Position numbers and translations under genes: made by a program
Assembly (NCBI GenBank): GCA_021299455.1
Contig: JAJTGQ010000012.1
Location: 1-62,324 of the forward strand
Direction: 5' to 3'
DNA: 62,324 nucleotides
From: Flammeovirgaceae bacterium
GTDB lineage: Bacteria; Bacteroidota; Bacteroidia; Cytophagales; Cyclobacteriaceae
Part shown: positions 51,858-59,002 of the stretch, in pieces
Layout: every line of letters begins with the position of its first letter
How positions within the stretch are numbered: the stretch's first letter is position 1
Notes under the pieces: generated by a model
What the model saw: only the letters and a program-made list of their open reading frames with translations
Databases searched by the model: none
Told to the model about the DNA's origin: nothing

Positions 51858-53809
51858 TTCACAATCGGCTTCTCCTCCGCAAAATCTCCCCTCAAATTTC
51901 TAAAGCGCTTTCGGGCTTCGGCAGCATAAACACTACCGGGATATTTGTTTAAGAAATCGCGGTAGATCTCCATTGCCTTGTCTTTGTTTTTAAGGTGTCG
52001 CTCGTAAATATCCGCTTGCAAAAATACCGCATCATCTGTCAAAATTTCTTCCGGATACTCTTTGGCGATTTTTTCCAAAAGTGCAATCGCCTGATCAAAT
52101 TGTCCTTGTTTCATTCGAATGTTCGCTTCGAGCCAATAGACGTCATCTTGGATAGTACTTGCCAGTTTGGTGTCAACTATTTCTACCAGTGAAAGCCCAT
52201 CTTTCGTCTGTAGAATCTTTCCTTTGAAATTTAATTCCGATAGTTCTGTCGTTGTGAGCCAAGCGTTTTTCTTTGGCTGAAATTTTTCCAGTCGCATAAG
52301 CGCTTCTGTCATTTTGTTTTGGGCTAACAGCAATTCGATGGCTGCAAATTCTCTCAACCCTGCTCCTGTAGAATCAAACGCTGTATTTTCCTTTATCCGC
52401 ATGCTTAACTCGAGCGCGTCATTGGCGATTTCGCGCGTGGTGGCTTGTTTTAAAATATCTAAGTGTTCTTGCGCCAATTTGAAATCGCCTTTGTAGTAAG
52501 ATAACTTTGCGTTGCGCAATTTCGCCTCGTAGCCGAGTGGCGTTTCGCGCTGCGACTTTTCTACTTGAGAATAAAGGAGCGTGGCTTCCCAAGGTTCTTC
52601 TTTCAACAAATAAATATCTCCCAGTTCAACTTTTGACTGATTGCGAAGTTGTCCAGATGCTTTTTGATCTGCGATCAATCGGTTAAGTACTACGACCGAA
52701 GAGTCCAACTCGTTGAGGTAGTAGGCGTGTAAAAGCGCTTCACTCAAACGGGCATCAAAGGAACTTGGGTGATCTGGATATCGGGAACGAAACTGCGCGA
52801 ATTCTTTGATCAGGTATCGAACAGAATCTTTGTTAACGGGGAAGCTGTTTTTTACCTGCGCCTCTCGTGTCTTGATCAGGCCTAGTTGAGCGGGTAAAAA
52901 GTTAGGCGTATTTATAAATTCTTTGATGACATATAGAAACGCTCTGTCTGCGTTTTTGTAATCTTTGTTGTTCAAAGCAATTTGGGCTATCTCTAGTGTT
53001 TTAGATTGTTCTTTCCGAAATCTTTTGTCGTAAGCCCGAGCCTGAATAAATGCACCGTAGAAATTTTTAGACTGCAGATTCGTCCAAATCAGCAAATCAC
53101 TGTATACTTCTGAGTCTTGATTTTTTTGAACTCTGTCTGTCAACAAGTTTTCTAGGCTCTCCAACTCTTCCGGCTTTGTTAACAAAAGTTGCATCAAATT
53201 TTTTATATAGCCAGAGTTGGTGGGTGTTTGGGTGACATAGTCCAGGTATTCACCCACCATTTCATCCCTTTTCCCCTGAATCCGATAGAGATTAGCAAGT
53301 TCAAGTGCAAACGCGTGAGGGTTGTTGGCCGCAACACGGCTTTGCTTTAATGCAAAGATGCTGTAGTCAACCAAATTTCTCGAGGCTAAGTAATCGGAGA
53401 TTGTTTTGGCTTTATAGGCGTCATCAGCGTTTGTTTTAATAAGTGCTTTTAAATATTTGTCTGCCTTCGTTACATCACCAGATCTCAAGTAGAGTATTCC
53501 TAAGTCCAGTCGATAGTTTAATCGATCCTCTCGTCTGATCAATTTTTCGATGTAATCTTCAGCTTGTTTAAAGTTCCCCAACTCAATCATTAGGTTGAAG
53601 TAGCTAGTGTGGATAGATGAAGCGTTTTGGGGATTTTTAGAAAGTTGTTGAAAAGCCGCCAGTGCTTTATTTTTTTCACCCCGCAATAGATACTCATTCG
53701 CAATCTGAATTTCTTGAGTTTCTTGTGCAGTTGCTAGTTGTGCACAAAGGAGCGCTAGTATTGTATTAAATATTAAATTTTTAAATTTTTTGTATTTGTA
53801 GTTATCCAT
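51854..53809 (-). CDS. Exported TPR-repeat protein
   Basis: This 651-residue protein has a signal peptide (NTILALLCAQLATAQ) and more than a dozen tetratricopeptide-like helical hairpins across the mature chain (ANEYLLRGEKNKALAAFQQL, VELGDIYLLKEEPWEATLLY, DDAVFLQADIYERHLKNKDKAMEIYRDFL). The last repeat ends PGSVYAAEARKRFRNLRG, as in YbgF/BamD-type repeats. It is probably a periplasmic scaffold. The 258-bp gene-free stretch upstream of its ATG holds the candidate origin. Confidence 0.88.
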   Translation of the reverse strand: MDNYKYKKFKNLIFNTILALLCAQLATAQETQEIQIANEYLLRGEKNKALAAFQQLSKNPQNASSIHTSYFNLMIELGNFKQAEDYIEKLIRREDRLNYRLDLGILYLRSGDVTKADKYLKALIKTNADDAYKAKTISDYLASRNLVDYSIFALKQSRVAANNPHAFALELANLYRIQGKRDEMVGEYLDYVTQTPTNSGYIKNLMQLLLTKPEELESLENLLTDRVQKNQDSEVYSDLLIWTNLQSKNFYGAFIQARAYDKRFRKEQSKTLEIAQIALNNKDYKNADRAFLYVIKEFINTPNFLPAQLGLIKTREAQVKNSFPVNKDSVRYLIKEFAQFRSRYPDHPSSFDARLSEALLHAYYLNELDSSVVVLNRLIADQKASGQLRNQSKVELGDIYLLKEEPWEATLLYSQVEKSQRETPLGYEAKLRNAKLSYYKGDFKLAQEHLDILKQATTREIANDALELSMRIKENTAFDSTGAGLREFAAIELLLAQNKMTEALMRLEKFQPKKNAWLTTTELSELNFKGKILQTKDGLSLVEIVDTKLASTIQDDVYWLEANIRMKQGQFDQAIALLEKIAKEYPEEILTDDAVFLQADIYERHLKNKDKAMEIYRDFLNKYPGSVYAAEARKRFRNLRGDFAEEKPIVN

Positions 53810-54084
53810 GTGGATATGTTGAAAACTTCAGCTGGTTTATAGCTTGGTTGATTAAATATGGACTAGTATTCGTGTTTAGGTTTGTTTGGCGGCTAGTGTG
53901 GCTAAATTAACATTTTGTTGTGGAATGTGAATAACTTCTAGACGCTTTGTTTATAGTTGGTAGATTGTGTTAGACCTAGTAGTTGTCAACGTATGACTAG
54001 AGTGTTTGTTTTATTTTTAGGACATGTGACTAGGTTTGAAGTAATCCACACGTTGTAGCTTGGTTATTCAGAACTTTATCAACA
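53763..54084. other. Candidate replication origin (DnaA-box cluster with AT-rich run)
   Basis: 53763-53800 is almost pure A/T. Four DnaA-box-like 9-mers follow: TGTGGATAT (53809-53817, minus-strand ATATCCACA), TGTGAATAA (53926-53934, minus-strand TTATTCACA, an exact TTWTNCACA), TAATCCACA (54042-54050) and TTATCAACA (54076-54084). Three GACTAG repeats (53861, 53995, 54028) and a TAGCTTGGTT direct repeat (53840 and 54056) add structure. The gene-free part is 53810-54067. Inference from motif density only. Confidence 0.35.
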
Positions 54085-56587: not shown

Positions 56588-58450
56588 TCACTTGCCCATG
56601 TAAATAGTTAGGATTGACACGTCAGCGGGTGAAACCCCACTGATGCGGGATAGCTGGCCGATGGTTTCCGGTCTGACTTTTTTTAATTTTTCCCGTGCCT
56701 CAGAAGAGAGTGCCTTTACCCGATCATAGTCAAAGTCTGACTTGATAATATAGTCTTCTAAGCTCTCAATCTTGTCAGCCATTTTTTGCTCGCGTTCAAT
56801 GTAGCTCTCGTACTTCGTGAGGATTTCTACTTGCTGCAAAACATCTTCGCTGTATTTACTCAGCGTTCTATTCACTTCAACATCAATTCTCTTCAGATCT
56901 GCCATTCCGATGTGGGGACGCTTTAGCAGATTTTCAACCGGTACCTTTTCAGTGATTGTTGCGGTGTTCAATTCGGTGAGTTCGTCATTCACCACGCTTG
57001 GCTCAACACGGAGTAACTTTAGTTCTTTGGTCAGGCTTGCCATTTCGTTTTTCTTGTCGAGTAGTTTTTCTAACCGTTCGTCTGTAGCCAGACCAAGTTG
57101 GTGACCCATCTCGGTTAACCGCAAGTCAGCATTGTCTTGGCGCAATAGAATTCTGTATTCGGCTCGCGAGGTGAACATGCGATAAGGTTCTTGGGTGCCT
57201 TTGTTTACCAGGTCGTCTATTAAAACGCCAATATATGCTTCTGATCTTTTCAGTATGAAGGGTTCTTTTTCATGAACCTTGTTGCGGGCGTTTATGCCGG
57301 CCATTAGTCCTTGGCAAGCGGCTTCTTCATATCCGGTTGTCCCATTGATTTGACCAGCAAAATACAGATTATCAATTAGTTGAGTCTCCAAACTCATTCT
57401 TAATTGAGTAGGCGGGAAGTAGTCGTATTCAATGGCGTATCCGGGTCGGAACATTTTCGCATTCTCGAATCCAGGTATTTTTGTAATGGCTGCATACTGA
57501 ATATCCTCTGGCAGTGAGGTCGAGAAGCCATTGACGTAGATCTCTACCGTTTTCCATCCTTCTGGCTCTACGAATATTTGATGGCGATCTCTCTCAGCAA
57601 AGCGATTGATCTTATCTTCTATGGAAGGGCAATACCTTGGGCCGAGACCTTTGATCCTTCCTTGGAACATGGGCGACCGATCAAATCCCTTTTCTAGTTC
57701 TTTGTGTACCGCTTCATTTGTATAGGTGATCCAGCAGCTCAGTTGATTTTCGAGAGGCTTTGTATCCGAGTAGGAGAACTTACTGGGATTCTCGTCCCCT
57801 TTCTGCTCTTCCATCAGAGAATAGTTCAGTGAACGGCCATCGATACGAGGTGGTGTTCCTGTCTTCATTCTCCCCGATTCAAAACCTAACTCAATCAGTT
57901 GCTCGGTGATTCCCGTTGCGGCTTTCTCAGCCGTGCGGCCTCCCCCAAAGTTCTTTTCTCCTATGTGAATTTTTCCGTTTAGAAATGTGCCATTGGTTAG
58001 CACCACGGCTTTTCCCTTAACTTCTATGCCAAGCGCGGTTCTCACTCCAACTACTCTCTTGTCTTTAACCAGTAAGCCAGAGACCATCTCTTGCCAGAAA
58101 TCTACGTTTGGCATTGATTCGAGGGCAAGTCTCCATTCTTCTGCAAAACGCATTCTGTCGTTTTGAGATCTTGGGCTCCACATGGCTGGCCCCTTAGAAA
58201 GGTTTAGCATCCGAAATTGTAGCATGGATTTGTCTGAGACAATTCCAGAGTATCCACCTAGCGCATCTATCTCTCTAACAATTTGTCCCTTGGCAACACC
58301 ACCCATGGCCGGGTTGCAAGACATCTGAGCAATAGTGTTCATATTCATGGTAATCAAAAGCACTTTTGATCCCATGTTTGCAGCAGCCGCTGCGGCTTCA
58401 CAGCCTGCGTGCCCCGCCCCCACCACTATTACATCGTATTCTTGAAACAT
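56588..58450 (-). CDS. mnmG: tRNA uridine-5-carboxymethylaminomethyl modification enzyme MnmG (GidA)
   Basis: With MnmE this FAD enzyme makes the cmnm5U34 modification of tRNAs. The FAD motif is VVVGAGHAGCEAA at residues 9-21. The folate/FAD loop KGPAMWSPRSQNDR, MKTGTPPRIDGRS, GYEEAACQGLMAGINA and the C-terminal helical domain are all present. At 620 residues it is full length. In many bacteria gidA lies beside the replication origin, and two parS-like sites lie just upstream here. Confidence 0.97.
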   Translation of the reverse strand: MFQEYDVIVVGAGHAGCEAAAAAANMGSKVLLITMNMNTIAQMSCNPAMGGVAKGQIVREIDALGGYSGIVSDKSMLQFRMLNLSKGPAMWSPRSQNDRMRFAEEWRLALESMPNVDFWQEMVSGLLVKDKRVVGVRTALGIEVKGKAVVLTNGTFLNGKIHIGEKNFGGGRTAEKAATGITEQLIELGFESGRMKTGTPPRIDGRSLNYSLMEEQKGDENPSKFSYSDTKPLENQLSCWITYTNEAVHKELEKGFDRSPMFQGRIKGLGPRYCPSIEDKINRFAERDRHQIFVEPEGWKTVEIYVNGFSTSLPEDIQYAAITKIPGFENAKMFRPGYAIEYDYFPPTQLRMSLETQLIDNLYFAGQINGTTGYEEAACQGLMAGINARNKVHEKEPFILKRSEAYIGVLIDDLVNKGTQEPYRMFTSRAEYRILLRQDNADLRLTEMGHQLGLATDERLEKLLDKKNEMASLTKELKLLRVEPSVVNDELTELNTATITEKVPVENLLKRPHIGMADLKRIDVEVNRTLSKYSEDVLQQVEILTKYESYIEREQKMADKIESLEDYIIKSDFDYDRVKALSSEAREKLKKVRPETIGQLSRISGVSPADVSILTIYMGK

Positions 58451-58509
58451 CTCTTAATCAAACTTTATAAAACAATAAATCACAAAGACACTAAGATTTT
58501 GAAACGGAT

Positions 58510-58525
58510 AGTTTCACGTGGAACA
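58510..58525 (-). other. parS-like ParB site (left)
   Basis: On the minus strand this reads TGTTCCACGTGAAACT, matching the Bacillus parS consensus TGTTCCACGTGAAACA at 15 of 16 bases. It is one arm of a perfect 20-bp inverted repeat (58507-58526 with 58565-58584). Confidence 0.7.
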
Positions 58526-58565
58526 TCCGTCTAAGCCCCAACAACTGGCTCATAAGGGCTAAACA

Positions 58566-58581
58566 TGTTCCACGTGAAACT
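58566..58581 (+). other. parS-like ParB site (right)
   Basis: TGTTCCACGTGAAACT, 15 of 16 bases of parS, is the mirror arm of the left site with 40 bases between the cores. It overlaps the last codons and TAG of ybeY. As RNA the two arms could form a 20-bp stem, so a terminator role cannot be excluded. Confidence 0.7.
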
Positions 58582-59002
58582 ATCTACGCAAAGATAGGCA
58601 AGCTTCTTCTTTTTTGCGCATCAGGGCTTTTTCGGAAGGTTTTTTGTCTTTGTAGCCGATAAGGTGGAGGACTCCATGGATCATTACCCTGTGAAGCTCA
58701 TCTTCAAATTCGGTATTGAACCTTATGGCATTCTCTTGAACCCTTTCAATGCTAATGTAGATTTCGCCTTCTAAACCGTTTTTGCCTTCAGAGTTATCGA
58801 AGGTGATGATGTCGGTGAGGGTTTTGTGGTTGAGAAAGCCTTGGTTGAGTTGGAGGAGGTATTTGTCGGAGCAGAATATGTAGTTGATTTCTTTAATGGT
58901 TTTCTTTTCCCTTCTGGCAACTTCCTTAATCCACAGAGTCTTCTTCCGTGGCAAGTCTATCTTAAACGAAATATCCTCTGAGAAAAAGCGAATGGTAGCC
59001 AC
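58580..59002 (-). CDS. ybeY: Endoribonuclease YbeY
   Basis: YbeY is a zinc-dependent RNase for 16S rRNA maturation and ribosome quality control. The metal motif is MIHGVLHLIGYKDKKPSE (around residues 108-125), with two His kept. Lys-Asp-Lys replaces the usual third His position, as I recall for Bacteroidota homologues. The start is GTG 59002. The length of 140 residues is normal. Its stop codon lies inside the right parS-like arm. Confidence 0.92.
   Translation of the reverse strand: MATIRFFSEDISFKIDLPRKKTLWIKEVARREKKTIKEINYIFCSDKYLLQLNQGFLNHKTLTDIITFDNSEGKNGLEGEIYISIERVQENAIRFNTEFEDELHRVMIHGVLHLIGYKDKKPSEKALMRKKEEACLSLRR

Follow-up and report, generated by a model that had tools for sequence, protein, structure and literature searches.

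The closest described counterparts of the locus reported here are the origin-proximal parS clusters of Bacillus, Caulobacter and Pseudomonas, which are like it in the 16-bp site, the ParB family, the proximity to the origin and the clustering of sites. They differ from it in two respects: here parA–parB are not beside mnmG and lie on another contig, and here the sites are most often two, about 35–60 bp apart. Within the same phylum, clustered parS sites have already been used together with GC skew to locate the origins of gut bacteria, including the two Bacteroidetes B. caecimuris and M. intestinale, and the passages at hand from that report also state that origin and dnaA do not have to be at the same place (PMC10197239). 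The sites there rest on a consensus with two mismatches allowed and on Hi-C maps at 5 kb, and the same passages give neither gene context nor spacing. In its accessible part, PMC8653839 concerns second chromosomes, and nothing on parS spacing was found in the accessible parts of PMC7022226 and PMC5815017. Among the literature titles listed, none was on parS together with mnmG, on parS sites in Bacteroidota, or on the spacing or phasing of parS; such sites next to mnmG in Bacteroidetes may nevertheless have been reported before. Livny and co-workers are said to have surveyed parS sites in bacteria in 2007.

The putative parS pair between mnmG and ybeY

The window, by which we mean the whole stretch of 62,324 nt that was analysed, contains the following features around the sites.

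56588–58450, minus strand: mnmG (gidA), TIGR00136, 844 bits
58507–58584, no strand: perfect 20-bp inverted repeat enclosing both putative parS sites, with arms 58507–58526 and 58565–58584
58510–58525, minus strand: putative parS site 1, mnmG-proximal, TGTTCCACGTGAAACT read on the minus strand
58566–58581, plus strand: putative parS site 2, ybeY-proximal, TGTTCCACGTGAAACT
58580–59002, minus strand: ybeY, PF02130 and TIGR00043

The initial annotation had described a parS-like 20-bp inverted repeat between mnmG and ybeY, and this was borne out. The arms are perfect, and each of the two 16-mers fits TGTTCCACGTGAAACW at all 16 positions and has a single mismatch to TGTTCCACGTGAAACA (15 of 16). Both carry an exact 14-bp core of the parS near-palindrome TGTTYCACGTGRAACA, with the parS centre CACGTG. 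The gap between the 16-mers is 40 bp and their start-to-start distance 56 bp. Between site 1 and the mnmG start codon there are 59 bp, which puts the start of the core 74 bp ahead of the codon. On the other side, site 2 overlaps the ybeY stop codon, as had been claimed, and has two bases in common with its TAG.

By a first-order Markov model, about 0.0004 exact occurrences of TGTTYCACGTGRAACW were expected in 62 kb, and no core GTTYCACGTGRAAC with up to one mismatch was found in the window besides the two sites. The draft genome of the organism (3.9 Mb in 176 contigs) was scanned with two mismatches allowed, as the initial annotation had proposed. Five places were found, and only the two sites of the window were within one mismatch; the other three are at chance level, a reversed control pattern having given four. 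The window contained no Rfam match and no tRNA.

Partner proteins and the probable origin

A genome devoid of ParB would have spoken against the sites, but a ParB was identified in the draft with 185 bits, above the curated family cut-off, on a contig other than the window's. Its best matches among solved structures were Spo0J and then ParB chains. The ORF adjoining parB reads as ParA by its KGGVGKTT motif, which is a motif reading and not a family scan. In the ParB stretch GKNR...N...SMGHAR, R and G align, by our own count, with Caulobacter R173 and G201; in the passages available from PMC7383237 these two residues are absolutely conserved among ParB orthologs and changed in Noc. Judged from this alignment, the R and G would mark the ParB of the organism as having parS-type and not Noc-type specificity. 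The Noc-binding sites (NBS) are thus akin to the present ones in protein family and palindrome, whereas the ParB here has the parS-type R and G and the sites have the CACGTG centre. By the same count, the ParB (L006, 1228–2130, minus strand) has N in place of Caulobacter S172, a parS-contacting residue that those passages describe as conserved in both ParB and Noc (PMC7383237).

No SMC above the cut-off was found in the draft of the window's organism. In the set of relatives, an SMC match at E 1e-30 or better was present in 48 of 58 genomes and in every other member of the window's genus that is at least 90% complete, and the absence is therefore probably a gap in the assembly. The parB gene is far from parS in three genomes: the two are 1.2–1.7 Mb apart in G031, in G044 and in G024 (taken as circular), where ParB is at 31 kb.

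On the mnmG side of the sites, about 4.4 kb away, the window has a cluster of candidate initiator boxes.

53809–54084, no strand: five DnaA-box-like 9-mers with at most one mismatch to TTATCCACA, which we take to be the DnaA-box consensus; probable oriC

The cluster is mostly intergenic, with a TPR-repeat gene on one side and a Big_5-domain gene on the other, and touches the ends of both. In Markov simulations of the window, four or more boxes within 280 bp were seen in none of 200 runs. Among the relatives described below, the densest cluster of at least three boxes started 4.2–5.2 kb from the mnmG start, on the downstream side, in 67 of 80 loci. In L043, which agrees with G024 in site position, no three DnaA boxes were found within 200 bp. 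The GC skew was followed in G024, a congeneric genome in one contig of 4.26 Mb, using 40 sampled stretches; the stretches at 2.449 and 2.556 Mb bracket the cumulative minimum, and the position of parS is 2.570 Mb. In G044, also one contig, the skew over 20 sampled stretches was too irregular to place the origin, and in the fragmented genome of the window's organism it was computed for the window only, where it was uninformative. The cluster at 53809–54084 is the probable oriC, and with parS of G024 at the skew minimum the earlier proposal of an origin-near position beside gidA stood up.

Exact sites, the presence of ParA and ParB in the genome, conservation beside mnmG and proximity to the probable origin together give good support to the proposed parS identity. 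On the basis of these analyses, the two sites almost certainly represent the chromosomal centromere parS of a ParABS system near the probable oriC. As in known ParABS systems, dimers of ParB, encoded with ParA elsewhere in the genome, would bind each 16-bp site; once loaded there as CTP clamps, they would spread into the neighbouring DNA in both directions. The zone of spreading would mark the region about 4.4 kb from the probable oriC, and ParA would move the sister origins apart. The sites would show where a fragmented Cytophagales-type genome has its centromere and, probably, its origin. As a centromere it is well defined but ordinary, and it is the spacing of the sites, not their inversion, that is worth following.

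Sites beside mnmG in relatives and their spacing

As relatives we took the best 80 of 583 mnmG matches, mostly from Cytophagales-type organisms, which together with the window make 81 loci. In 67 of them, the 1.5 kb upstream of mnmG contained exact 14-bp cores, and 62 of the 81 had between two and five cores, so that a close pair is the rule among relatives. Two cores were found in 53 loci, three in 5, four in 2, five in 2, one in 5 and none in 14. Among these last 14, L041 is cut inside mnmG, six loci (L101, L109–L113) have a site with one mismatch, and in seven (L068, L096, L099, L104, L105, L114, L115) no site with up to one mismatch was found upstream of mnmG; L104, L105, L114 and L115 are Hymenobacter loci. 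Outside the zone upstream of mnmG, the same loci contained a single exact core in a total of approximately 714 kb. Pairs whose cores are separated by 8–38 bp occurred in 87 of 128 genomes of the family, 32 of 148 of the order and 55 of 395 of the class; the window's own pair is wider and falls outside these counts. In other orders, 15 loci from 14 genomes were parsed (L164–L172, L190–L195). All 15 contained mnmG; 11 have the sites upstream of the gene, and the other 4 (L164, L165, L166 and L193, with L166 and L193 from one genome) have them downstream. It follows that, for the order and for part of Bacteroidia, parS beside mnmG can be used to mark the origin, also when parAB is distant.

The position of the sites is less stable than the gene beside them. 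In the top-matching record, L037, whose MnmG is 99% identical, two sites are 149 bp apart and placed differently from those of the window, and therefore parS sites turn over fast. We also noticed a second parS group in G229 (L186, 2988–3060; contig C1, about 34.8 kb), which is approximately 30 kb from the mnmG pair and is adjoined by none of the window's neighbour genes.

A clean co-occurrence of the sites with ParB was not found among the drafts. Sites but no ParB match were seen in G006, G012, G018 and G023, two of which are 97% complete; G030 has only the last 20 residues of ParB, at a contig edge, and G045 and G052 have ParB and only one-mismatch sites beside mnmG. Eight genomes appeared siteless in a first scan. 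One of them, G011, has two exact cores 120 bp apart with different outer bases, and G003, G004 and G013, which gave no mnmG match, count neither way. G036 and G049 had no site beside mnmG, and the remaining two of the eight are G045 and G052 with their one-mismatch sites. In family f2 of the same order, parS was missing beside mnmG in all four genomes examined (G036, G055, G072 and G128; L261–L264), and ParB was undetected in both of those tested (G036 and G055), in which SMC is present. This joint absence is in favour of the parS reading, and the ParABS system may possibly have been lost in this family.

The 81 loci yielded 77 start-to-start distances between neighbouring sites, which clustered at 36–39, 43–48 and 55–58 bp. 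Further pairs were collected from the family (at least 75, among the pairs listed), from other orders (58) and from other families of the order (28); rows belonging to the window's family had been removed from the last two sets, 5 and 7, respectively. When pairs among those listed were reduced so that a genus contributed each spacing only once (n=135, 22–52 bp), 8 values were at 24–27 bp, 4 at 28–33, 51 at 35–39, 9 at 40–42 and 53 at 43–48. The best period was 10.25 bp (R 0.359); compared with smoothed resamples, in which any period from 8 to 14 bp was allowed, p was ≤0.0005. Spacings across Bacteroidia are thus near 24–27, 35–39 and 43–48 bp, a periodicity of roughly 10 bp for which there is moderate evidence. 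It suggests that neighbouring ParB dimers would be on one face of the helix, and with moderate evidence and ancestry partly controlled, the spacing is probably under selection for helical phase.

It is conceivable, and only a little on the doubtful side, that this periodicity is a sampling effect, due to shared ancestry and to the range allowed by the search pattern and not to helical phasing. Such an effect would fit the behaviour of the smaller sets. The window's genus alone had no significant phasing (22 pairs, 5 of them at 40–42 bp; at 10.5 bp, p 0.29). When each spacing was counted once per genus, the other families of the order alone reached p 0.08 for a 10.5-bp period, their best period being 7.25 bp, and the other orders alone gave p 0.05 at 10.5 bp. 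For all pairs from outside the family, with each spacing kept once per family (n=65), p was 0.01 at 10.5 bp and 0.035–0.045 when the period was free. On the other hand, apart from the p value of the collapsed set itself, the signal was retained when the window's genus was added (n=145, p 0.0002) and when a single spacing was drawn once for each of 95 genera (p 0.0005). Period and phase fitted on the family (9.70 bp) predicted the pairs from other families and orders (V 0.247, p 0.0013, n=68), whereas no periodicity was seen in the control, the interval separating the mnmG start codon from its proximal site (n=63, p 0.68–0.76).

Pairs with wider gaps were also considered (at least 65 among the pairs listed, after ten pairs spanning a third site were dropped). 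The prediction set beforehand was of peaks at 56–58, 66–69 and 77–79 bp and troughs at 51–53, 61–63 and 72–74 bp; it was not blind, because 14 of the first 77 distances were already at 55–71 bp. Among the pairs listed there were 47 genus-level values. As many as 31 were at 53–60 bp, with 21 at 54–56 and only 11 at 56–58; of the rest, 1 was at 61–63, 6 at 66–69, 2 at 72–74 and 2 at 77–79. The fit to the family phase had p 0.05 and to the set's own phase p 0.03 at 10.5 bp, and the best period was 12.75 bp, which again speaks for a sampling effect.

Coming back to helical phasing, we give an even chance to the following picture. The Bacteroidia centromere would be a short array, usually of two parS sites, whose spacing is selected per helical turn (approximately 26, 37, 46, 56 and 67 bp); the phase-selected spacing would put neighbouring ParB dimers on the same face of the DNA, where they could act together, for instance when clamps close or in bridging. 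Sequence, orientation and place of the sites would change rapidly, with the phase staying the same. If this is true, the layout of the centromere is tied to the loading of neighbouring ParB clamps, and assays with single sites are blind to it. The periodicity of the spacing may be the one point here that is new.

Neighbouring genes, orientation of the pair and spacers

The sites could also serve mainly as ParB-dependent regulators of mnmG, with segregation proceeding through other sites, which we consider improbable. In the 67 loci with a core, the proximal core starts at a median of 31 bp ahead of the mnmG start codon, and ParB bound there could affect transcription or translation. In the window, however, the core is 74 bp ahead of the codon, and in 4 of the 15 loci from other orders the sites are downstream of mnmG altogether. 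No alternative centromere is visible either, because the draft has no other site with up to one mismatch, and proximity to the origin is what a centromere predicts.

The initial annotation had considered the orientation of the two sites unusual and meaningful. This claim was not upheld. Close pairs are normal in relatives, and among the 77 neighbouring pairs the relative orientation was readable in 19, of which 8 were inverted and 11 direct. Outer flanks were complementary at 2.62 of 6 positions, compared with 2.50 for shuffled partners (p 0.12), and inner flanks did not differ from shuffled partners either (p 0.37). The perfect inverted repeat of the window was missing from the four relatives aligned with it. 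Nor is the overlap with the ybeY stop codon special, since in the 64 loci where it was measurable the distal core overlapped the stop in 10 and was 1–30 nt away in 47.

That the repeat acts as RNA, in the form of a hairpin that ends ybeY transcription or shapes the mnmG leader, is highly improbable: the hairpin of the minus-strand transcript is predicted to be very stable (−56.9 kcal/mol, z −8.7, for 140 nt; −46.8, z −8.3, for 96 nt), but some hairpin is automatic because two near-palindromic sites pair with each other, weaker ones occur in L038, L040 and L043, and the direct as well as inverted pairs of relatives, with flanks no more complementary than shuffled ones, do not fit such a role. 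The strong stem has no U-tract, and a terminator scan scored none at the repeat, so an intrinsic terminator or RNA hairpin was rejected. Given the split of 8 and 11 in orientation, the lack of covariation in the flanks and the lack of a U-tract or terminator, the perfect inverted repeat is most plausibly a peculiarity of the window's genome. The mirror-image orientation is incidental and without a role of its own; as each site is nearly palindromic, a directional effect of orientation would not be expected.

Another observation was made in the spacers between two mnmG-side parS sites. In genera g94, g111, g150 and g158, the spacer includes a DnaA-box-like motif, or two of them, each within one mismatch (L178, 2972–3026; L179, 3032–3088; L180, 2960–3014; L181, 2931–3012; L182, 3035–3101), as if the sites for the initiator and for ParB were interleaved.
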